64,000 bases of DNA from Microbacterium luteolum (GTDB lineage: Bacteria; Actinomycetota; Actinomycetes; Actinomycetales; Microbacteriaceae): the NCBI RefSeq assembly GCF_039533965.1, contig NZ_BAAAUN010000001.1, forward strand, positions 2,826,950 to 2,890,949, written 5' to 3'. Both the position numbers and the translations under genes were made by a program. Each line of letters opens with the position of its first letter. Position 1 is the stretch's first letter. Below are positions 16,788 through 64,000 of the stretch, piece after piece. The notes beneath the pieces are model-generated. The model made no database searches. It was given only the letters and a program-made list of their open reading frames with translations, and was not told the origin of the DNA.

Positions 16788-16884
16788 ATTCACACCTTAG
16801 AGGCGCTCGGCGCAGCGGGTGCCGGTGCAGAAATTCAGCATCCGCGTTCTAGACTCGGGAGACACGTCTTCGGGGGTACTTTCC

Positions 16885-18159
16885 ATGCAGCATCTCTCGT
16901 CGCGCCGGTGGCGCGCCGTCGCGGCCACTGCGGCCGTGATCGGTCTGGTCCTCACCGGCTGTTCCTCCGGTGAGACTTTCACGTACACGCCACCCGCTCA
17001 GGTCGACGGCGCACTGCCGGACGACACGGTCGCCGCCATGCAGGAAGCGGTCGACAGTGCGGTCGCGGCGTCCGGTGCCTCCGGGGCCATCGTCGGGGTG
17101 TGGGTCCCCTGGAGCGGCACCTGGGTCACGGCGACCGGCACGCAGGATCGTGACGGCGCGACGCCCGTCGACACCGACATGTCCTTCCGCATCGCCGACG
17201 TGACGCGTCTGATGACCTGCGATGTGCTCTACGCCCTCGTCGACGAGGGGACCGTCGAGCTCGACGCGAAGGTCCCGAAGTACGTGTCGGGCGTCGCCGA
17301 CATGCAGGACATCACTCTCCTCGACCTCTGCAACGGCACCAGCGGCGCCGGGTCGTCCGAGGCGGTCGCGAAGAACGCCTGGCTGAACACCCCCGAGCGC
17401 GTGTGGGCGCCTCTGGAGCTCGCGGGCTACGGCCTGGGCATCACCCGCGTCGCCGCGCACACGACCTACCGCGATTCGGACTCGGGATATCTGCTGCTCG
17501 GCATGGCGCTCGAGCGCGCCTCCGGGATGACCGCCTCCGAGCTGATCGCGGAGTACGTCACCGAGCCCCTCGGCCTTCCTGACACGTCGCTGCCCGGCGT
17601 CAAGGCAGACCCGCCGTCGATGAACGGGCACTTCATCAACGGCGTCACGGGTGGATACACCTGCGCGGCACCGGTCGACATCACCGCGCTCTCGTCCAGC
17701 GCCGGTTTCACGGACTCCGGCGTCGTCTCGACGATCACCGACCTCGGCCGCTACGCGCAGGCCGAGGCGGCGCAGGTGCTCCGCAAGGACAAGGACAAGC
17801 CGAACCGCTTCGGTGCTCCGCTCCCGGTCGCTGCCGACGCCGCGTCCTGGTACCAGGCCACGGGCGGCGCCTACCTCGTCGGCTCGATGGTCGGCCAGCA
17901 CGGCTGGACCCCCGGGTACGCGACGGCCGCCTACTCGGACCCGACGACCGGCTTCACGGTGGCGGTCGTGCTGAACGACTCCACGGCGGGCGCGACGTTC
18001 GCGCAGTACCTCTCGTGGGAGCTCGCAGCGATCGCCTCCAAGGCGCCGGCGGCCTCCGGCGAGACCGCACCGGAGTTCGGACTGCCGTTCACGGCCGGGC
18101 AGTACCACCAGGCCATCCTCGACGCCGCGCTCGTCTGCGTCGAACCGCCCGTGGAGTGA
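16885..18159 (+). CDS. Serine-hydrolase-like lipoprotein with degenerate active site
   Basis: 424 residues. A signal sequence ends in a lipobox LTGC (Cys26), so it is membrane-anchored outside. The fold is that of the beta-lactamase/DD-peptidase class C family: FRIADVTRLMT, GYLLLGMALERASGMTASELIAEYV in pieces, EPLGLPDTSLP, and HGWTPGY near the end. The usual SxxK catalytic pair is replaced: alignment of FRIADVTR with the family's FRIGSVTK puts Asp105 for Ser and Arg108 for Lys. It is probably a non-catalytic binding protein. A TAGACT -10 is at 16850-16855. Confidence 0.85.
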   Translation: MQHLSSRRWRAVAATAAVIGLVLTGCSSGETFTYTPPAQVDGALPDDTVAAMQEAVDSAVAASGASGAIVGVWVPWSGTWVTATGTQDRDGATPVDTDMSFRIADVTRLMTCDVLYALVDEGTVELDAKVPKYVSGVADMQDITLLDLCNGTSGAGSSEAVAKNAWLNTPERVWAPLELAGYGLGITRVAAHTTYRDSDSGYLLLGMALERASGMTASELIAEYVTEPLGLPDTSLPGVKADPPSMNGHFINGVTGGYTCAAPVDITALSSSAGFTDSGVVSTITDLGRYAQAEAAQVLRKDKDKPNRFGAPLPVAADAASWYQATGGAYLVGSMVGQHGWTPGYATAAYSDPTTGFTVAVVLNDSTAGATFAQYLSWELAAIASKAPAASGETAPEFGLPFTAGQYHQAILDAALVCVEPPVE

Positions 18160-49485: not shown

Positions 49486-50586
49486 TCAAACAGTGTCTGC
49501 GAACAGCTCCATGATCGCCTCGCCCATCTCGACCTGGGTGAGCACGATCTGGAAGGTGCCGTCCGGGTCGATGTGGAAATCGGTGCCCTGGCCGCCGGAC
49601 CAGCCGTAGCGTCCGGCGTGCTCGCCCTCTGTCACGACGGCGACGCCGAAGCCCCAGCCGGTGCCGTTCCAGAACCCGGGGAAGAAGCTGTCCTCCGCCT
49701 TCGCCGCGGCCGGCACCTGATCCGTGCGCATCAGGTCGAGAAGCTCCGCATCGATGACGATCCTCCCGTCGTGGATGCCGCCGGCTGCCAGCATCCGTGC
49801 GAACGCGGCGTAGTCGGATGCCGTCGACACGAGCTCCGAATGGCTGAGGTCGAACGGGGCCGGGGCGACGGAGAACCCGCCTGCGGCGGGTTCGATCTCC
49901 ACCAAGGTGCCGGACTCGTCGTGGCGATACGCGGCGGGCAGCCGATGCGCCTGCGCGATGGGCACGGTGTACCCGGTGTCGACCATGCCGAGCGGCTCGA
50001 ACAGGTCGGTCCGCAGGTGATCCTCGAGCGATCCCTCGACCACGCGGGAGAGCAGGATGCCGAGGATCCCGAAGGAGTGGTGGTAGCGCCATCCGGTCCC
50101 GGGCTGGAAGGCGAGCGGCAGGTCGGCGAGGGCATCCAACCATTCCTGCGCACCGAGGGCGACGGGTTCCTGTCTGGCCTGGGTCCGGTTGGCGATCATC
50201 GCATCCTGCAACGGGCACGGCGCTGGCATCATGCCGTACCCCGACATGTTCGTCAGCAGATCCCGCACTGTGATCGGCGACTCGGCGGGCTCGACGTCAT
50301 CGAGTGAGGACGTCGGAGTGCGCAGCACCTGACGATCCGCAAGCTCCGGCAGCCACCGTGCGACCGGATCATCGAGACCGAGCCGTCCGTCCTGCACGAG
50401 CCGCAACGCCGCCACCGTCACGATCGGCTTGGTCATCGACTGGATCCGCACGATCGCATCCGCCGGCAGATCGCCCGCCGTGACGACCTCGTCCGGTCCG
50501 TCGGGCCGACCGCGAACGGCGATGATCCCCGGCGCCGTCCCGCGCGAGACATGGTCTTCGAGAATCGGAAGCAGAGGATTCGTCAT
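49486..50586 (-). CDS. Serine hydrolase, beta-lactamase/class C family
   Basis: 366 residues, no signal peptide. RIQSMTKPIVTVAALRL contains an intact SxxK (Ser-Met-Thr-Lys), and ITVRDLLTNMSGYGMMP and GWSGGQGTDFHIDP fit the family. The second motif reads YHH rather than YxN. It likely acts as an esterase or amidase in the cytoplasm. In contrast to the lipoprotein at 16.9 kb, its nucleophile is present. The ATG at 50586 was chosen since upstream codons cross the tRNA. Confidence 0.88.
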   Translation of the reverse strand: MTNPLLPILEDHVSRGTAPGIIAVRGRPDGPDEVVTAGDLPADAIVRIQSMTKPIVTVAALRLVQDGRLGLDDPVARWLPELADRQVLRTPTSSLDDVEPAESPITVRDLLTNMSGYGMMPAPCPLQDAMIANRTQARQEPVALGAQEWLDALADLPLAFQPGTGWRYHHSFGILGILLSRVVEGSLEDHLRTDLFEPLGMVDTGYTVPIAQAHRLPAAYRHDESGTLVEIEPAAGGFSVAPAPFDLSHSELVSTASDYAAFARMLAAGGIHDGRIVIDAELLDLMRTDQVPAAAKAEDSFFPGFWNGTGWGFGVAVVTEGEHAGRYGWSGGQGTDFHIDPDGTFQIVLTQVEMGEAIMELFADTV

Positions 50587-50652
50587 GCCCACCATTGAAC
50601 ACGCTGCGCGTCGCGAGCGAATGTCCGGAACAGCTCTGGACGTTACATGTGG

Positions 50653-50723
50653 AGGGACTGACGGGAATCGAACCCGCGCTATCTGCTTGGGAAGCAGAAG
50701 TTCTGCCATTGAACTACAGTCCC
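50653..50723 (-). tRNA. glyT: tRNA-Gly (anticodon CCC)
   Basis: The minus strand folds to a cloverleaf: acceptor GGGACTG/CAGTCCC, D arm with TAGTTCAATGGCAGA, anticodon stem TCTGC/GCAGA with loop TTCCCAA (anticodon CCC), and T arm with GGGTTCGAATCCC. A discriminator T is followed by an encoded CCA (50652-50650). It reads GGG codons. Confidence 0.96.
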
Positions 50724-50832: not shown

Positions 50833-53800
50833 TCAGCGACGCCAGCGCCGCCGCCCGGCGAAGGCGAGTCCGCCGCCGACGAGCAGGAGCGCCGCCAGGG
50901 CGAGAGTCACGGTGAGGACGTTTCCGTCCAGTCCGGTCGCCGCGAGTCCGCCTCCGCCGCTCGTGCCGCTGGAGGCTCCGCCGCTTCCGCCGGTGCCCGT
51001 GCCCGGCTGCCCGGTTCCCGGCCCGGTTCCGGGGTCCGCCGCCCGCACGGTCAGAGCGGCGCGGAACTCCGTGCCGTCGGCCCGTGTCATCACGATGTGG
51101 TGCTGGCCCGCCGGGACGTTCGCCGGCACCTTCCACGTCAGCGACGCCGCTCCGGCCGCGTCAGCCGCCACCGTGCCCATGTCGACCGGGTCGGAGTGCA
51201 GCGCGAACGACACATCCTCCTCCGGCTCGAGCCCGGCGACCTCGACCGTGATGTTGTCGCCGGCGGTGACGGCATCCGTCGAGATCGTGATCTCGGGAGC
51301 CGCCGGGGTCACGGCTTCGTCGAGCGTCACCATGATCCAGCTCACCTGCACGTCGGCGTCACGGGTCGGTGCCAGCACCAGCTCGATCTCGCCCGCATCG
51401 CCCACGGTGATGTCGCCGTAGCTGCGCGTCTCGTCGGCCGCGACGTAGTCGTGGTCCTCCTCGACGACGGTGCCGTTGACGCTCACCCGTGCCCCGCGGT
51501 CATCCCACTGATCCCACGGATCCGCGTATCCGACGTGCACGCTGTAGCGACCTGGCTCGAGGTCGCCGAAGCGGTACGCGATGTCGCGCCCATCGACGGC
51601 GTAGCGGAGCGTGGAGAACATCGTGCCGTCGGTCGCACCCGACGACTTGCTGCCCTCGCTGACGTACCCCCAGGATGCGCCGGTGTCGGCATCCTCGCCG
51701 TAGGACTGGTCGGCGAGGGTGTTCTGCAGGTCGCCCTCATCCGCGGCATCCCGCAGTGCCTTCCAGTCCGCCGTCTCCTGCCCGCCGGCGTTCACCGCGT
51801 AGCGGAGCCCGTCGGGGACGACGGCGATCGTCCGGGTGAAGGTGCGTCCGCCGAACTCCGGCAGGGTGCCCGTGGCCGTCACGATGCCCGGCGCGTCGAA
51901 CGATCCGCTGAAGCTCCACGTGACCGGCTGCTCCGTCGCGACGCCGTTCCTGGTCACGGTCACCACCGGCACGTCGAAGCTGCCGCCGACCGGGATCGTC
52001 TCCGGAACCGCCGAGACGTCCCACGCCGACCACTGGTCGAGCTGATCGAGAGTCCACTCGTCGTGCACCTCGACCGAGAGGGAGTCTCCGCCCTCGCCCA
52101 TGCTGATCGGGAGCCACACCATCTGCGCGTTCTTCAGATCGGTGCCGCCGTTCCAGCGGTCGCCCATGTAGATGTACTTCCCCTGCTCGGGGTCGACCGG
52201 GATCACGGAGGACGGCTGCGAGTTCCAGGAGTTGCTCTGCGCCCACCACGGGAACGGGTCGCCCATCTCGGTCCACGCGCCCATGAGGTCGGTCGACGTC
52301 GCCCAGCGCGACGGGTTGGGGCTCCAGCCCGTCGTGCCGGAAGTGATCAGGAAGTACCGTTCGTCGTGCTGGAAGATCGCCGGGGATTCCCGGGACTGGT
52401 TCACGAAGATGCGGTTGTAGTCCACACCGAGCACGGCCTCATCCGCGGGCGTCGCGAGATCCGTGTACTCGTCGTCGAGCTTCGAGATGAACATGGTGGC
52501 GTTCTCCTCGCTCGAGTAGATGATGTACCCGGTGCCGTCGTCGTCCACGAACAGGTTCATGTCGCGCGCCATGCCGCCGTTGTTCGGGGCGTGGTTGGGC
52601 GGATCGGCATCCGCGGGGGCGTAGTTCAGCCGGTAGCTGTCGATGTAGCGGAACGGGCCGAACGGGGAGTCCGACACCGCGACGCCGGCATTCGCCTTCG
52701 CGTACTGCGCCGACGACGTCGCGGACGGCCCGTCCATGTGCGCCCACATGACCCACTTGCCGGTCTGCTCGTTGAAGATGACCTTCGGACGCTCGATGAT
52801 CGGCGGGGTCACACCCTCGACCGGGACCGTGCCGAGGTCGCGGTAGACGGCATCCTTCTGCTCCTGCGTGTAGTCGCCGTAGAGCGCCTCGAAGTACGGC
52901 TCGTCGAACTGCTCCGTCGACGCCAGCGTGCGCAGCGCGACCCCGCGGTCCTCCCAGTTGTAGAGGTCGTAGGAGCTGTAGACGTGCACGCCCGGCGCCG
53001 AGTGGTAGCCGTTCGTGCGGTCCTCGCCGTAGAGGTAGTAGATCGTGCGGCCGTCGTCGTCGGTCGACGGGACGACCTGGCCGCCGTGCGCCTGGATGAC
53101 CTCGCCGTTCGTGTCGAGCCATTCCTGGCCGGGGCGGAAGCTCGCGTAGGGCGCGATCTCATCGCGCGCCGCGTCCAGCTTCCACTGCTGGTTCGCGCCG
53201 CCGTTCGACTGCCAGACCCCGACGGATGCGCCCGCGGAGGTCGAGGAGCCCCCGACGTCGAGCACCTTCCCGCGGCCGGCGTTGAGCAGGCTGAAGGTGC
53301 TGCCGTTCGTCGACGTCATCATCCAGAGGGCCGACGGGTCGGCGGATGCCGTGGCGTCGTCGACGTCGCGGAGGACCGTGCTGTCGCCGTCGGCGACGAG
53401 TGCGCGACCGTCGGCGGCGCGCAGAGCGAAGCGGTCACGGGACGTTCCCGGCTGGTCGTCGATCAGCGATGCCGTCCACGTCTGGGCGCCGATCAGCTCG
53501 GGCTCGCGAGCGCTGCCGAGCTGCGTGCTGTCGTCGACCACGGTGAGCGCGTGCCCGCTCTGCACGCCGGTGAGCGTGTAGGAGGCGCCATCTCGGAGGG
53601 CGGGCGCGTCGGCGGCGACGCCTTCGACACCGGTGACCACGAACGTGGTCACCGACTTCGCGGGCACCGTCAGGGTCGCCGTTCCGTCGGCACCGACGGT
53701 GACCGCCGTGCCGGTGCGGAGGGCGTTCGCCTCGGGGTCGGATGCCGGTGACCCGGTCGTCACGATCGGCGTCACGGTCGCGCTCTGGTCGATGTCGCCG

Positions 53801-55296
53801 AAGAGCGACAGGTCGATCGTGATCGTGCGGTCCTGGTCGCTCTCGTTCGTGTGCACGAGCGTGGCGCCGGAGCCGTCGCCGTCGATCGCGGCGGTGGTGT
53901 CATCGTCGCCGACGCGCACGAGCTGGTCGCCCGGCTCGATGTAATGGGTGAAGTTGCGCAGCGTGTTGTACTTCGCGTTCGTGCGGAGCTGGCAGCTCGG
54001 GTCGGCGTCGCCGTCGGCGATCCGGCGGGCGGAGTCGCCGTTCGCGTCGCAGTCGAAGTCGATGAAGATCGAACCCCAGTTCTTCTTCTCCACCTTCTCC
54101 ATGTTGTAGAGGTCCTCGACCGGCTGCCACAGCACCCAGGCGTCCGGTTCGAGTTCGCGCAGGTCGTCGCTGACCAGCTGGGCGATGCCGAGACCATTCT
54201 CGATCGCATCCGGGTTCCAGCTGTCGCCGCCCCAGTTGCCCTCGACCTCGCTCATCCACAGCGGCTTGTCGGCGCTCTTCGCGATGTCGCGAGCCAGCGG
54301 ACGGCCGCTGGTGCCGTAGGTGTGCACGTTGAGCTGCGAGACCACGTCTCGCGCCTCGGCATCCCACCCGTTCCAGTCCTCGACGAACCGGTCGGGGTTC
54401 GTCTCGTCGGGGCCGGAGATCGCGGCATCCGTCGTGGTGTCGGACTCGGCGAGTTCGGCGGCGAGGGCCTTGAGCACCTCGGCCTGCAGGGCGGGTCCGG
54501 CGTGGGCACCCTCCTGTCGGCTCGCGCTCGTCGGCCAGCCGTCGTCGCCCAGGGTCGTGCCCCAGTAGTTGGTGTTCGGCTCGTTCAGGGGATCGATCGT
54601 GTCGAAGGAGATGCCCTGGGTGTCCTCGACGTGCTCGACGACCGTCTTCACGTAGGTCGCGAAGGTGCCGAGCGAGTCCTGGCGGATCTGGTCCGCCCAG
54701 GCGTCGGTGCCGCCGCTGACGAATCCGCTCTCGGTCATGAAGTAGGGCGGGGAGTTGCTGAAGGCCTCCCACGTGTCGACCTGGTCCTTGATCGCCGACA
54801 CCCAGGCGAGCTGCGCGGCATCCGCCGAGAAGTCGTAGTCGCTCGCGTTCTCGCCGGTCCACGCGGCGCGGTAGCGGTCGCGGTCGGCGAAGTCCGACGT
54901 GATCTCGCCGCTGTCGTCGGTGAGGGGTGCGTCGGGGTTCCACCATCCGGGCACGGCGCCGCCGGGTCGGAGATAGGCGGGTACATCGGAGGCGTTGCCG
55001 CCGCCGATGTTGTACCGCGCGATGTTGAGGTTCAGGCCGTCGTCTCCGAACACCTTGCCGATGAGCTCATCACGCAGCTCTTCCGGGTAGGAGCCGGTGG
55101 CGTTCGCCATCCAGACCAGGCTCGATCCCCATCCCTGGAACGGCCCGCCGGCATAGGCCGGATTGGGCGTGAGGGTGAGATCGGATTCGGCGGCGCTGGC
55201 CGCCTGGGGGAGGGCGGCGAGTCCGCTCGCTGTCGCCGCAAGCACGGCGGCCATGGCGAGCGCGCGCCGGGGTGAGGTCGCTCTTCTTTCAGACAT
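50833..55296 (-). CDS. Cell-wall-anchored GH30-like / GH43_24-like arabinogalactan-degrading enzyme
   Basis: 1487 residues. A Sec signal (to about residue 37, AASAA) leads to a GH30-like domain (about 40-520) close to endo-beta-1,6-galactanases: GGPFQGWGSSLVWMANATG, acid/base Glu239 in DPLNEPNTNYWG and nucleophile Glu350 in PLWMSEVEGNWGG. A ricin-like beta-trefoil (about 535-715, GANQQWKLD) comes next, then a GH43 domain of the subfamily 24 exo-beta-1,3-galactanase type (about 730-1060: VIQAHGGQVV, YYLYGEDRTNGYHSAPGVHVYSS, RESPAIF, NSWNSQPSSV). Ig-like and carbohydrate-binding-like units follow. The end is LAATG, a membrane helix and RRRWRR: a sortase sorting signal. Predicted to strip side chains and backbone of plant arabinogalactan at the surface. 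Confidence 0.85.
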   Translation of the reverse strand: MSERRATSPRRALAMAAVLAATASGLAALPQAASAAESDLTLTPNPAYAGGPFQGWGSSLVWMANATGSYPEELRDELIGKVFGDDGLNLNIARYNIGGGNASDVPAYLRPGGAVPGWWNPDAPLTDDSGEITSDFADRDRYRAAWTGENASDYDFSADAAQLAWVSAIKDQVDTWEAFSNSPPYFMTESGFVSGGTDAWADQIRQDSLGTFATYVKTVVEHVEDTQGISFDTIDPLNEPNTNYWGTTLGDDGWPTSASRQEGAHAGPALQAEVLKALAAELAESDTTTDAAISGPDETNPDRFVEDWNGWDAEARDVVSQLNVHTYGTSGRPLARDIAKSADKPLWMSEVEGNWGGDSWNPDAIENGLGIAQLVSDDLRELEPDAWVLWQPVEDLYNMEKVEKKNWGSIFIDFDCDANGDSARRIADGDADPSCQLRTNAKYNTLRNFTHYIEPGDQLVRVGDDDTTAAIDGDGSGATLVHTNESDQDRTITIDLSLFGDIDQSATVTPIVTTGSPASDPEANALRTGTAVTVGADGTATLTVPAKSVTTFVVTGVEGVAADAPALRDGASYTLTGVQSGHALTVVDDSTQLGSAREPELIGAQTWTASLIDDQPGTSRDRFALRAADGRALVADGDSTVLRDVDDATASADPSALWMMTSTNGSTFSLLNAGRGKVLDVGGSSTSAGASVGVWQSNGGANQQWKLDAARDEIAPYASFRPGQEWLDTNGEVIQAHGGQVVPSTDDDGRTIYYLYGEDRTNGYHSAPGVHVYSSYDLYNWEDRGVALRTLASTEQFDEPYFEALYGDYTQEQKDAVYRDLGTVPVEGVTPPIIERPKVIFNEQTGKWVMWAHMDGPSATSSAQYAKANAGVAVSDSPFGPFRYIDSYRLNYAPADADPPNHAPNNGGMARDMNLFVDDDGTGYIIYSSEENATMFISKLDDEYTDLATPADEAVLGVDYNRIFVNQSRESPAIFQHDERYFLITSGTTGWSPNPSRWATSTDLMGAWTEMGDPFPWWAQSNSWNSQPSSVIPVDPEQGKYIYMGDRWNGGTDLKNAQMVWLPISMGEGGDSLSVEVHDEWTLDQLDQWSAWDVSAVPETIPVGGSFDVPVVTVTRNGVATEQPVTWSFSGSFDAPGIVTATGTLPEFGGRTFTRTIAVVPDGLRYAVNAGGQETADWKALRDAADEGDLQNTLADQSYGEDADTGASWGYVSEGSKSSGATDGTMFSTLRYAVDGRDIAYRFGDLEPGRYSVHVGYADPWDQWDDRGARVSVNGTVVEEDHDYVAADETRSYGDITVGDAGEIELVLAPTRDADVQVSWIMVTLDEAVTPAAPEITISTDAVTAGDNITVEVAGLEPEEDVSFALHSDPVDMGTVAADAAGAASLTWKVPANVPAGQHHIVMTRADGTEFRAALTVRAADPGTGPGTGQPGTGTGGSGGASSGTSGGGGLAATGLDGNVLTVTLALAALLLVGGGLAFAGRRRWRR

Positions 55297-55310: not shown

Positions 55311-55346
55311 ATTGTGTTGACGTCAACATGTCAACGTCAACACAAT
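55311..55346. promoter_or_regulatory. LacI-type operator cluster upstream of the glycoside hydrolase
   Basis: ATTGTGTTGACGT (55311-55323) and its exact complement (55334-55346) flank ten bases. Within this, TGTTGACGTCAACA (55316-55329) is a perfect 14-bp palindrome and TTGACGTTGAC-like words repeat on the other strand. Such TTGACGTCAA cores are typical of LacI-family sugar repressors. No lacI gene is in the window. Confidence 0.75.
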
Positions 55347-55400
55347 CTAGCGGAAGACGATCCTCCCGACAAGGGTGCGGGGGACAACTAGGCTGAACCC

Positions 55401-56006
55401 GTGCTTCTCAGCGATCGCGACATCAGGGCAGAACTCGCATCGGGCCGCGTCGGCCTGGAACCGCACGAGCCGGAGATGATCCAGCCGTCGAGCATCGACG
55501 TGCGCCTCGATCGGTACTTCCGCCTCTTCGACAACCACAAGTACCCGTTCATCGATCCGTCGGTCGATCAGCCCGAGCTCACGCGCCTGATCGAGGTCGA
55601 TCCGGAGGAGCCGTTCATCCTGCACCCGGGGGAGTTCGCCCTCGGTGCGACGTACGAGCAGGTCACTCTTCCCGACGACGTCGCCGCCCGCCTCGAGGGC
55701 AAGTCGTCGCTCGGCCGCCTCGGCCTGATCACGCACTCGACGGCCGGGTTCATCGACCCGGGATTCACCGGGCACGTGACGCTCGAGCTCGCGAACGTCG
55801 CGACCCTGCCGATCAAGCTCTGGCCGGGGATGAAGATCGGGCAGCTGTGCTTCTTCCGCCTGACCTCGCCGGCCGAGAACCCGTACGGCTCCGGCCCCTA
55901 CGGCAACCGGTACCAGGGGCAGCGGGGCCCGACGGCCTCCCGCTCCTTCCAGAACTTCCATCGGACGGATGTCGGCGTGACCGACGTCGGAGCAACAGGG
56001 GGCTGA
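55401..56006 (+). CDS. dcd: dCTP deaminase
   Basis: 201 residues, usual length. [18 protein letters not shown], the catalytic Glu region [12 protein letters not shown], and [18 protein letters not shown] are family signatures; the C-terminal [17 protein letters not shown] closes over the nucleotide. It forms dUTP from dCTP for thymidylate synthesis; actinobacterial members such as that of M. tuberculosis also hydrolyse dUTP. TAGGCT ends six bases before the GTG, so it is probably leaderless. Confidence 0.96.
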
Positions 56007-56007
56007 C

Positions 56008-56469
56008 ATGAGTGACGGCAGCGGCACGACTCCGGATGAACCGGTCACCCCGGAAGAGCCGGCGATCGCGCCCGCGGATGCCGTCATCCCGCCGCCTCCG
56101 CCGGAGATCCCGATCCCGGAGGGGCTGCTGACCCCTCCGCCGGCGGAGATCCCGGTGCCGGACGCGGTGATCCCGCCGCCCCCGCCCGAGGCGCGCCTGC
56201 GCTCGTCCGAGCGCCCGCGCCCCGCGATCCTCGAAGGGGATCAGCCCGCCGCCGTCGCCGACGACTGGGCCAAGCCGTCGGTCGCGCCCGAGGTCCCGAC
56301 CTCGGGCGGCTATCGCGGCCTCACCGTCGCGATCTTCGCCTTCCTGCTGATCCTGCTCACCGCCGCGGTCGTCACCGGGATCTATCTGCTCAGCACCGGC
56401 CGCTTCCCGTTCGTGGTGTTCGATCTCGACGCCTCCGCGCTGGGCCTGGGCGTGGTGCTGCCGCTCTGA
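56008..56469 (+). CDS. Proline-rich single-span membrane protein
   Basis: 153 residues. The first 95 are disordered with an imperfect repeat (DAVIPPPPPEIPIPEG and DAVIPPPPPEARL), then a membrane segment at about 108-130 (LTVAIFAFLLILLTAAVVTG). The start lies one base after the dcd stop, so the genes are co-transcribed. No family recognised; the Pro-rich part may bind partners or span the wall depending on orientation. Confidence 0.75.
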   Translation: MSDGSGTTPDEPVTPEEPAIAPADAVIPPPPPEIPIPEGLLTPPPAEIPVPDAVIPPPPPEARLRSSERPRPAILEGDQPAAVADDWAKPSVAPEVPTSGGYRGLTVAIFAFLLILLTAAVVTGIYLLSTGRFPFVVFDLDASALGLGVVLPL

Positions 56470-62499: not shown

Positions 62500-63417
62500 T
62501 CAGTCCGTGCGCAGGGGCCGCAGCGTGCGGGCGTAGTCCTCCTTCAGCACCGCGAGGTGCAGCCACGCCTCGATGCGCGTCACCCCGGGTAGCGCCCGCA
62601 GACGTTCGAGGCTGGCGTACAGGGCGCCGGCCGAGGGCTCGACGAGGGTGGCGACCGCATCGAACCGACCGAGCGTGCGCGCGGCGAAGTCGACGCCGCG
62701 TCCCCTGCGCAGTTCCTCGATCACCGCTTCGTCGTCGTCGCCGAGGATCATGCCGACACCCATCGACAGCTGTCGGTGCGCGAGACCGCGTGCCTCGACC
62801 GCGCTGATCTTGATGACTCCCGCATCGATGAGCCGCTGCACGCGCGTGGCCACCGCGGAGGGGGAGAGCCGCACCTCCTCGCCGAGCGCGCGGAAGCTCC
62901 GGCGTCCGTCGGTCTGCAGCTGCTCGATCAGAGCCTCGTCGATCGCGTCGAGCGTGACCCCGCCGTGGTACTCCGAGACGAAGAATCCCTTCACGACGGT
63001 CGAGTAGATGATCGTGCTGATGTCGAGCACACCGGTGATCGCGCGGATCTGGGCGAGCAGGTCGTGCAGCTCCGACATCGAGCCGACCCGGATCTCCGTG
63101 ACCACGTCGTGCGCTCCGCCGACCGCCGACACCAGCACCGTCTCGTCGAGGTCCCGCAGGTGCTCCGCGACGACCTCGACGGCACCGTCGGTGCGGATCG
63201 AGACGTGCGCGAGGACGTGTTGGCCGAGGAAGACGGGATCGACGGCGGCGACCACCCGCACGGTGCGGTCTTCGAGCATGGCCTTCAGCCGGGCGGCGAC
63301 GGCGGCCCGGGACTGCCCGAGGCGCACGGACAGCGAGCGGATGCTGGCGCGCCCGTCCTCCTGGAGGGCCCGGATGAGTTCGGCGTCGAAATCCACGGCT
63401 TTCCTCCGATTCGTCAT
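62500..63417 (-). CDS. Double-length Lrp/AsnC family regulator
   Basis: 305 residues, twice the usual size. Two tandem Lrp/AsnC units are visible: helix-turn-helix at residues about 8-50 (LIRALQEDGRASIRSLSVRLGQSRAAVAARL in pieces) with an AsnC sensor to 150, then a second at about 160-205 (LIEQLQTDGRRSFRALGEEV and LSPSAVATRVQRLIDAGVI) with a sensor to 300. Such fused forms likely act as pseudo-tetramers. It diverges from an MHS symporter and may control its uptake gene. Confidence 0.9.
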   Translation of the reverse strand: MTNRRKAVDFDAELIRALQEDGRASIRSLSVRLGQSRAAVAARLKAMLEDRTVRVVAAVDPVFLGQHVLAHVSIRTDGAVEVVAEHLRDLDETVLVSAVGGAHDVVTEIRVGSMSELHDLLAQIRAITGVLDISTIIYSTVVKGFFVSEYHGGVTLDAIDEALIEQLQTDGRRSFRALGEEVRLSPSAVATRVQRLIDAGVIKISAVEARGLAHRQLSMGVGMILGDDDEAVIEELRRGRGVDFAARTLGRFDAVATLVEPSAGALYASLERLRALPGVTRIEAWLHLAVLKEDYARTLRPLRTD

Positions 63418-63619
63418 CTTTCCCGGGATCGCTCGCCCGGGAGAGCACAACCTCAGCCTAAGAGGTAGAACGACCGACGGGAAGGCGACACATGTCTCCG
63501 GTCGCGAACATTTCTCCAGTGAATGACTCTTCTCGCTGGAGTTCTGGCCTTGTCGCAGGCTCCGTACGGACGTAGCATCCTCCGTTATCCGACATCTTCC
63601 GCAAAGGAGCGGTTCCCTC

Positions 63620-64000
63620 ATGACCTCCACGCACAGCAAGGCCCGACGCGCAGGCATCGCCGCCTTCGTCGGCACCACCATCGAGTGGTACGACTTCTAC
63701 GTATACGCGACGGCCGCCGCCCTCGTCTTCGGCCCCCTGTTCTTCCCGAGCGGAGACCGGCTCGCCGAGACCGCCGCTGCTTTCGCGACCTTCGCGGTCG
63801 CCTTCCTCGTCCGGCCCCTCGGTGGCATCATCTTCGGCCACATCGGCGACAAGCTCGGCCGGCGCACCTCGCTCGTCATCACCCTGCTGATGATGGGCGC
63901 CGCCACCGTGCTGGTCGGCTGCCTGCCCACCTACGAGAACATCGGCATCCTGGCGCCGGTCCTCCTGATCCTGCTCCGCGCCATCCAGGGCCTGGCGGTC
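63620..64000 (+). CDS. MHS family MFS transporter (ProP/KgtP-like), 3'-truncated by window edge
   Basis: 127 residues to the window end. GTTIEWYDFYVYATAAALVF is the metabolite:H+ symporter signature, and VRPLGGIIFGHIGDKLGRRTS is the MFS motif A region. Relatives carry dicarboxylates, osmolytes or aromatic acids. AAAGGAG precedes the ATG. The divergent Lrp-like gene suggests a substrate related to amino acid metabolism. The 202-base gap holds no further gene; a CTCCAG/CTGGAG inverted repeat lies at about 63516-63537. Confidence 0.9.
   Translation, partial: MTSTHSKARRAGIAAFVGTTIEWYDFYVYATAAALVFGPLFFPSGDRLAETAAAFATFAVAFLVRPLGGIIFGHIGDKLGRRTSLVITLLMMGAATVLVGCLPTYENIGILAPVLLILLRAIQGLAV

Follow-up and report, generated by a model that had tools for sequence, protein, structure and literature searches.

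The window analysed here is a stretch of 64,000 nt from the genome of Microbacterium luteolum (contig NZ_BAAAUN010000001.1, positions 2,826,950 to 2,890,949). Our subject is a gene on its minus strand, at 50833..55296, whose product joins a domain of glycoside hydrolase (GH) family 30 and one of family 43, subfamily 24 (GH43_24). The open reading frame (ORF) extends from 55329 to 50833 and has 1498 codons when counted from the first ATG, and an ATG at 55296 gives a product of 1487 residues. We consider 55296 the likelier start, because a promoter-like match and a pair of operator copies cover 55311–55342 and overlap the first ATG, and because MSERR is also where the homologues P0002 and P0003 start. 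The original prediction, made from the letters alone, had given the coordinates and the length of 1487 residues correctly, and we add the strand. Residue numbers below refer to the 1498-codon frame; subtracting 11 converts them to the earlier 1487-residue numbering. The GC content at third codon positions (GC3) is 0.92. As full-length homologues reach 93% identity over 99% of the length, the features of the protein are not chance resemblances. The source genome has 4.14 Mb, and the closest named contigs are those of Microbacterium sp. TPD7012 (92%) and K24 (90%).

A Sec-type signal peptide region, recognised by eye (residues 12–45, 55195..55296), is followed by the GH30 barrel and beta-sandwich (residues 46–570, 53620..55194), a ricin-type beta-trefoil (about residues 573–724, 53158..53613) and the GH43 subfamily-24-type domain (residues 725–1100, 52030..53157). 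Pfam assigned RicinB_lectin_2 (2e-15), Glyco_hydr_30_2 (PF14587, 3.9e-12) and Glyco_hydro_43 (1.1e-11), each above its gathering score, and the NCBIfam search assigned no family to the protein. The trefoil, CBM13-like, was matched by PF14200 in two stretches (best 668–724) at 57.7 bits compared with a cut-off of 25.6, bearing out the earlier placement of a trefoil between the two catalytic domains. An AlphaFold2 model of residues 46–730, the kind of check proposed along with that placement, is confident for GH30 plus trefoil (mean pLDDT 92.8). It displays the strands of the trefoil, and its best structural matches are GH30 enzymes (Foldseek, VIA-align). Beyond GH43 lie a putative immunoglobulin (Ig)-like stretch, suggested by sequence and alignment and with no Pfam match (residues 1101–1180, 51790..52029), and a malectin-like stretch that may be a carbohydrate-binding module (about residues 1177–1302, 51424..51801), its PF11721 match being weak (E 0.0023, below the Pfam cut-off). 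A second stretch, which we read as Ig-like (about residues 1341–1440, 51010..51309), has a 46% match to G000:C1:2488513-2488980, within an anchored protein of the same genome. The sorting signal LAATG, a transmembrane helix, an Arg-rich tail and the stop occupy 50833..50946.

The GH30 half matched the solved structure 24td at E 5.6e-28; with a profile from 36 relatives the match rose to 1e-58, at 202 bits compared with 67 for the next GH30 structure. Its features are those of the family, a (beta/alpha)8 barrel with two Glu, plus a beta-sandwich. The acid/base E250 and the nucleophile E361 (within 53620..55194) are invariant in the alignment of the 36 sequences and align with E217 and E320 of 24td; they are the catalytic Glu 239 and 350 of the original prediction. 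The available portion of the report on Streptomyces avermitilis Sa16Gal30A lists N216, E217, Q229, Y294, E320, W350, D354 and W359 as the residues around galactobiose (PMC13431644). In our protein these map to N249, E250, Q272, Y338, E361, W401 and W418, with E405 in the place of Asp354. All but D354, which is Glu, are kept in 19 of 19 fusions examined. The galactose-binding residues of subsites −1 and −2 in GH30_5, including the Gln that reads the axial O4 and the Trp of subsite −2, are thus present, with the one change of D354 to Glu.

The closest characterised kin of the GH30 half, judged by sequence and tree, is a bifidobacterial exo-enzyme. In the parts of two reports that were available (PMC10850190, PMC8406136), Bifidobacterium longum BLLJ_1841 is described as a GH30_5 exo-beta-1,6-galactobiohydrolase with GH30, galactose-binding, ricin-like, F5/8 and Ig domains, clustered with BLLJ_1840 (GH43_24). 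The same portion of the second names a B. aesculapii protein as an orthologue of BLLJ_1841 (PMC8406136), which we take to be P0317 from its species and domains. The GH30 half is 36.8% identical to P0317 over 619 columns (E 6e-107) and 28% identical to Sa16Gal30A over 486 columns (E 2.5e-42). P0324, which groups with P0317, carries the source name galactan exo-1,6-beta-galactobiohydrolase. In a GH30 tree of 65 rows the bifidobacterial proteins form a long branch (length 1.22) inside the actinobacterial GH30-ricin family, where they join P0343–P0346 and P0138 at 99/96, with Sa16Gal30A as the sole outgroup. This tree is a 53-row tree plus intermediates, with L089–L091 dropped and L092 kept. The approximately unbiased (AU) tests belong to the 53-row tree, in which a grouping of the bifidobacterial branch with Sa16Gal30A was not rejected (p-AU 0.331).

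Loop 4 has 13 residues in the endo-enzyme, 22–23 in the fusions and 52–65 in the bifidobacterial proteins, and loop 8 has 10, 18 and 25–31, respectively. We slightly favour an exo, galactobiohydrolase-like mode of cleavage over an endo mode, since the bifidobacterial exo family is nearest in sequence and tree, yet the loop lengths fall between those of endo- and exo-enzymes. The original prediction had called this half an endo-beta-1,6-galactanase; the conserved residues uphold the beta-1,6-galactanase type, but “endo” is not established. It is nevertheless quite possible that the GH30 half is a true endo-beta-1,6-galactanase, which would yield mixed galacto-oligosaccharides from inside the side chains. 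Its best solved relative, by a wide bit-score gap, is the endo-enzyme 24td, and a loop 4 of 22–23 residues is far from the bifidobacterial length. On the other hand, loop 4 exceeds that of the endo-enzyme by about 9 residues and loop 8 by about 8, which could narrow the cleft, and sequence and tree place this half nearer the exo-acting family.

Two observations on GH30 relatives are recorded here. P0048, a chytrid record (Cladochytrium replicatum), is a GH30-ricin protein inside the actinobacterial tree, 50% identical to the GH30 half of our protein, suggesting either horizontal transfer or contamination. At G079:C1:1391331-1393060 and G200:C1:1826505-1827772 the GH30 match is in pieces, with stop codons in one G079 piece, and the gene looks decayed in both genomes.

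The GH43 half matched the solved structures 6eug, 3vsf, 6euf and 7bys at E 1e-52 to 1e-34. For the GH43_24 exo-beta-1,3-galactanase Pc1,3Gal43A, the available text of PMC7939473 lists eight subsite −1 residues, proposes Gln as the base of GH43_24 and describes the Glu recognising the galactose C4 hydroxyl as essential. All eight residues are present in our protein (E769, E846, R847, Y876, D923, E981, W1002 and Q1038, within 52030..53157); seven are kept in at least 36 of 37 aligned rows and E846 in 34. The usual Asp base is absent, and the acid E981, the base candidate Q1038, the C4-recognising E846 and AHGG at 747–750 are all found. The AHGG, RESPA and NSQPS motifs singled out by the original prediction coincide in position with their counterparts in GH43_24 structures, and its assignment to this subfamily agrees with the full subsite −1 set and the structure matches. 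By its residues, the GH43 half is supported as a GH43_24 exo-beta-1,3-galactanase type.

In three separate GH43 proteins, P0045, P0047 and P0050 (two of them named Arthrobacter and Paenarthrobacter), Trp replaces the C4-reading Glu (E846 in our protein), which could indicate a changed specificity; P0045 and the fusion P0039 both come from Arthrobacter sp. 35W. A further 29 weaker places in the genus sample (e.g., G100:C71:41397-42068), many with ORFs of about 300 residues, are 32–40% identical to the GH43 half and possibly encode intracellular relatives. They were left out of the GH43_24 counts below.

The C-terminus reads LAATG, then a helix, then an Arg tail, as the original prediction stated. 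Class E sortases prefer the motif LAXTG. The genome encodes one sortase (the sole PF04203 match), which is class E by NCBIfam NF033747 (232 bits compared with a cut-off of 160). With motif, helix, basic tail and sortase all found, the protein is probably sortase-anchored at the cell surface. A tail of this kind, recognised by a simple pattern, was seen in 7 of 44 fusions and 27 of 73 GH30-only proteins among the listed homologues, and on this pattern the wall anchor appears as a minority trait among fusions. A large secreted protein of the same genome (L099:994-3993, G000:C1 ~2.486 Mb) has a similar terminal stretch and an LATTG tail; we take it for an anchored surface protein.

The homologue search found 680 proteins, and the figures given here rest on the best 120 listed plus the query (n = 121). 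Both domains are carried by 44 of these, in each case with GH30 ahead of GH43; another 73 contain just GH30 and 4 just GH43. The original prediction knew of no described enzyme with this domain order. The literature search agrees to the extent that, among the matches listed, no title or abstract start deals with a GH30–GH43_24 fusion, most subscription journals being outside its coverage, but the architecture itself is not unique to our protein, 43 of the 120 listed homologues being fusions.

The 19 fusions of the GH30 tree make up a single clade with 100/99 support, whose sister group consists of separate GH30-ricin proteins from Microbacteriaceae and other taxa. GH30 and GH43 are likewise fused in P0043 and P0044, two proteins of Demequina type, one of them named Demequina soli. 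Their GH30 falls in the separate-gene clade, and their GH43 groups with separate Microbacterium GH43_24 enzymes, on a long branch with 100/99 support. Because the Demequina GH30 lies in the separate-gene clade and the Demequina GH43 in another GH43_24 lineage, the trees indicate that the GH30–GH43_24 fusion arose at least twice, with different GH43_24 lineages. A single origin of all fusions was rejected: the 19 fusions and the Demequina pair as one clade gave p-AU 0.00123 in the 53-row tree, for a group named after the tree had been seen. In L092, GH30 and GH43 are neighbouring separate ORFs about 20 bp apart, and this GH43 has weak similarity to the PDB entry 5flw. L089–L091 had no GH43 match among the ORFs of the fetched stretch; these four loci are called Bifidobacterium-like from the kin of their proteins.

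The linkage could be without functional value: two ordinary galactanases would have ended up in one polypeptide by chance and would gain neither synergy nor any advantage over separate enzymes. In line with this, the fusion is rare in the genus, being present in 8 of 295 Microbacterium genomes (genus sample, domain-wise searches), compared with the commoner state of both genes separate (21 of 287), and 37 of the 44 fusions are without an anchor. Still, different GH43_24 lineages gave rise to the combination on at least two occasions, and the main fusion has been kept across Microbacterium, Agromyces, Arthrobacter and others, and we regard chance linkage as unlikely. A good test case provided by nature is genome G071, where the fusion occurs together with a separate GH43_24 and another two GH30 matches, one of them just 46% identical.

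Upstream of the fusion gene lies a perfect 14-bp palindrome, TGTTGACGTCAACA, at 55315..55328, which we propose as a LacI-type operator. A second copy with two mismatches abuts it at 55329..55342 (two places at up to two mismatches found, 0.10 expected), and the pair overlaps the promoter-like match at 55311–55340. Across the 295 Microbacterium genomes the exact site occurs in 57 of the 74 that have the enzymes, compared with 15 of the 221 that do not (Fisher p 1.9e-31), and a reversed control pattern occurs in 0 of 295. Among the 75 exact sites listed, a part of the total, 51 are within 400 bp upstream of a GH30 or GH43_24 match. When up to two mismatches are allowed, 7 of 12 fusion loci have the site. 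So do 8 of the 12 separate GH30 loci that were fetched and 16 of the 22 fetched for separate GH43_24; of the latter, one has almost no upstream sequence. In six genomes (G054, G071, G197, G219, G243 and G262) the exact site precedes a GH30 gene as well as a separate GH43_24 gene, and G013 carries it at the fusion and at a separate GH43_24. G080 has the site before its GH30 gene, with more copies in the gap that separates a LacI gene from a divergent operon coding for two permeases, a binding protein, GH35 and GH51. A copy in G219 is flanked by a LacI gene and the beginning of a LamG-GH43 protein, and one in G197 is found just beyond a close LacI homologue. This distribution supports one arabinogalactan regulon. 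The shared palindrome before the fusion, separate GH30 and separate GH43_24 genes is new here; one narrow literature search, with all terms required together, did not find an arabinogalactan regulon of soil actinobacteria.

Two perfect operator copies are also seen in Agromyces salentinus (L014:6801-6834), about 3 kb upstream of the fusion gene and not at the gene start. The separate GH30 genes of L030–L033, which are without the operator, carry a related palindrome, TGTTTACGCAAACA (three mismatches), at a like place; it is possibly a variant operator.

In the source genome, a cluster with its LacI gene at G000:C1:1200094-1201086 resembles that of G080 (LacI 52% identical, permeases 71% and 74%, binding protein 60%, GH35 58%), and two operator copies with two mismatches, 34 bp apart, lie between LacI and the first permease. 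A GH51-type gene is found elsewhere in this genome, which also has four strong GH42 matches, a fifth, weak one lying inside the GH35 gene. The LacI proteins at the different loci are 31–51% identical, except for one close pair. Given this divergence beside the sites and 34 matches to the LacI query in the source genome, which LacI reads the site can only be inferred.

The palindrome might instead belong to a broader regulator and define no arabinogalactan regulon. Exact sites in genomes without the enzymes and sites elsewhere in the genome would fit this, as would the differences among LacI proteins beside the sites. The one other place in the source genome within one mismatch of TGTTGACGTCAACA (G000:C1:2256844, L103:10845) fits it too, lying about 250 bp before an operon of an ABC transporter and a ROK regulator. 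By an arithmetic estimate, about 0.7 such sites are expected in random sequence, so that this place is near chance expectation and serves as a lead only. The site is, however, strongly enriched before GH30 and GH43_24 genes and at the LacI/ABC/GH35/GH51 cluster, and the control pattern is absent, so that a broader regulator seems improbable.

The two enzymes also keep company as separate genes. Among 287 sampled non-fusion Microbacterium genomes, GH30 is found in 62 (a few fragments and one 37% match included, which weakens the count), separate GH43_24 (E <= 3e-56) in 25, and both in 21 compared with 5.4 expected (Fisher p 3e-12, a test that, like the one on the operator, ignores shared ancestry). 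The fusion locus of G013 contains GH127, GH51, two GH43, parts of an ABC importer, a LacI regulator and an esterase, with an L-arabinose isomerase and the separate GH43_24 enzyme within about 30 kb of the fusion; its fusion ORF is identical to that of Microbacterium hydrocarbonoxydans C1-2. When the flanks of 11 named loci were compared with the window, L008 and L009 had long shared stretches, L011, L014 and L018 one short match each, and six none.

Taken together, we consider it likely that the product is secreted, is probably anchored by sortase and serves, with its two enzymes, to consume type II arabinogalactan of plants. The link to this polymer, already drawn in the original prediction, gains support from the residues, the gene clusters and the shared operator. 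The protein is a real, coherent two-enzyme surface protein and not a new system. From its anatomy, catalytic residues and phylogeny and from the operator distribution we infer the following steps, together with substrate, products, regulator, anchoring and synergy. The GH43_24 half would trim the beta-1,3-galactan backbone from the non-reducing end, letting side chains pass and releasing them, and the GH30 half would cut the released side chains to galactobiose. Binding of the substrate may fall to the trefoil and the malectin-like stretch. An ABC importer would take up the products, and intracellular GH35 beta-galactosidase, perhaps with GH42 enzymes, would split them. A LacI-family repressor probably controls the gene through paired operators of the TGTTGACGTCAACA type, jointly with the importer and GH35. 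Tentatively, we would go further and propose a one-polypeptide depolymerase, in which an exo-beta-1,6-galactobiohydrolase and a bypassing exo-beta-1,3-galactanase pass branches between their sites, and whose coupling evolved at least twice, with different GH43_24 lineages, within a LacI regulon whose operator already united the separate genes.

Besides the limits on the co-occurrence counts and Fisher tests, several points weigh against an arabinogalactan enzyme under a common operator. In the window, no other sugar-polymer enzyme was found among the 27 ORFs scanned (one is the fusion, and 55347–56087 is probably not a gene), and the neighbours are unrelated: a dCTP deaminase, a beta-lactamase-fold protein, a GDSL lipase and transporters. 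Of the 74 enzyme-bearing genomes, 17 lack the exact site; of the 75 exact sites listed, 24 are not in such upstream positions; even at up to two mismatches the site is absent from 5 of 12 fusion loci; and the importer cluster of the source genome is without the GH51 of G080. Identity of the GH30 half to characterised kinds is low (28% to Sa16Gal30A, 33–37% to the bifidobacterial proteins). The available portion of PMC13431644 reports a distal beta-1,6-galactan site (W341, R301, D302) as conserved in several characterised GH30_5 members. In the alignment our protein has Glu at 341 and gaps at 301 and 302. This does not decide GH30_5 membership, because bifidobacterial kin of a literature GH30_5 member, 12 aligned proteins, lack the distal site too. 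Finally, Foldseek placed xylan-active GH30 enzymes first; the fold search does not decide the substrate, because its structure library extends only to 8 April 2026 and the best 50 matches listed do not include 24td. That the GH30 half targets another substrate, xylan or a beta-D-fucoside (some other GH30 subfamilies act on beta-D-fucosides), in a general side-chain trimmer is very doubtful, given the conserved Gln for the axial O4 and Trp of subsite −2, the coupling to GH43_24, GH35 and GH51 by genome, operator and polypeptide, and a fold ranking that lists no 24td among its rows.

An arabinogalactan-degrading pair of this kind has a counterpart in B. longum, where, as far as the available text tells, Bl1,6Gal (BLLJ_1841, GH30_5) and Bl1,3Gal (BLLJ_1840, GH43_24) have the same two activities expected here, GH30 with ricin-like domains, and surface anchoring, but are two genes of one cluster rather than one polypeptide as in Microbacterium. 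The bifidobacterial loops 4 and 8 are far longer than ours, and the GH43 of L092 is only 35% identical; this comparison used P0317, P0324, L092 and kin, the B. longum sequences themselves not being identified by name. Sa16Gal30A shares both Glu, all reported subsite −1 residues and the subsite −2 Trp359 with our protein, and differs in its 28% identity, shorter loops, distal galactan site and a solved construct without a second catalytic domain. Pc1,3Gal43A (7bys), Ct1,3Gal43A (3vsf) and BT3683 (6eui, with the same sequence as 6eug) share the full listed subsite −1 set, including the Gln proposed as base, but their solved chains have no GH30 partner. BlArafE of B. longum (GH43_22 + GH43_34), in the available part of PMC8939339, is likewise located at the surface and has two catalytic domains directed at the side chains of arabinogalactan proteins, but these are arabinofuranosidase domains of one family and not backbone and side-chain galactanases. 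According to that same part, no study reports a catalytic gain from coexistence of domains in one polypeptide for soluble substrates (PMC8939339).

Few plant glycans are as complex as arabinogalactan proteins, and it is debated whether joining complementary glycosidases in one chain brings a benefit. In related strains there are pairs of separate enzymes, fusions of two independent origins, and versions with or without an anchor; whether joining pays can therefore be tested directly. The operator gives a handle on the arabinogalactan regulon of soil actinobacteria. What would surprise a specialist here is that the fusion evolved twice and that the operator is shared.

Elsewhere in the window, two beta-lactamase-fold (PF00144) proteins are encoded at 49486–50709 (minus strand) and 16819–18156 (plus strand), the former with a weak score, far below the cut-off, against the methyl acetate hydrolase AcmB. 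A 393-residue Lrp/AsnC-type regulator at 62500–63681 (minus strand) contains the helix-turn-helix and ligand domains each twice.

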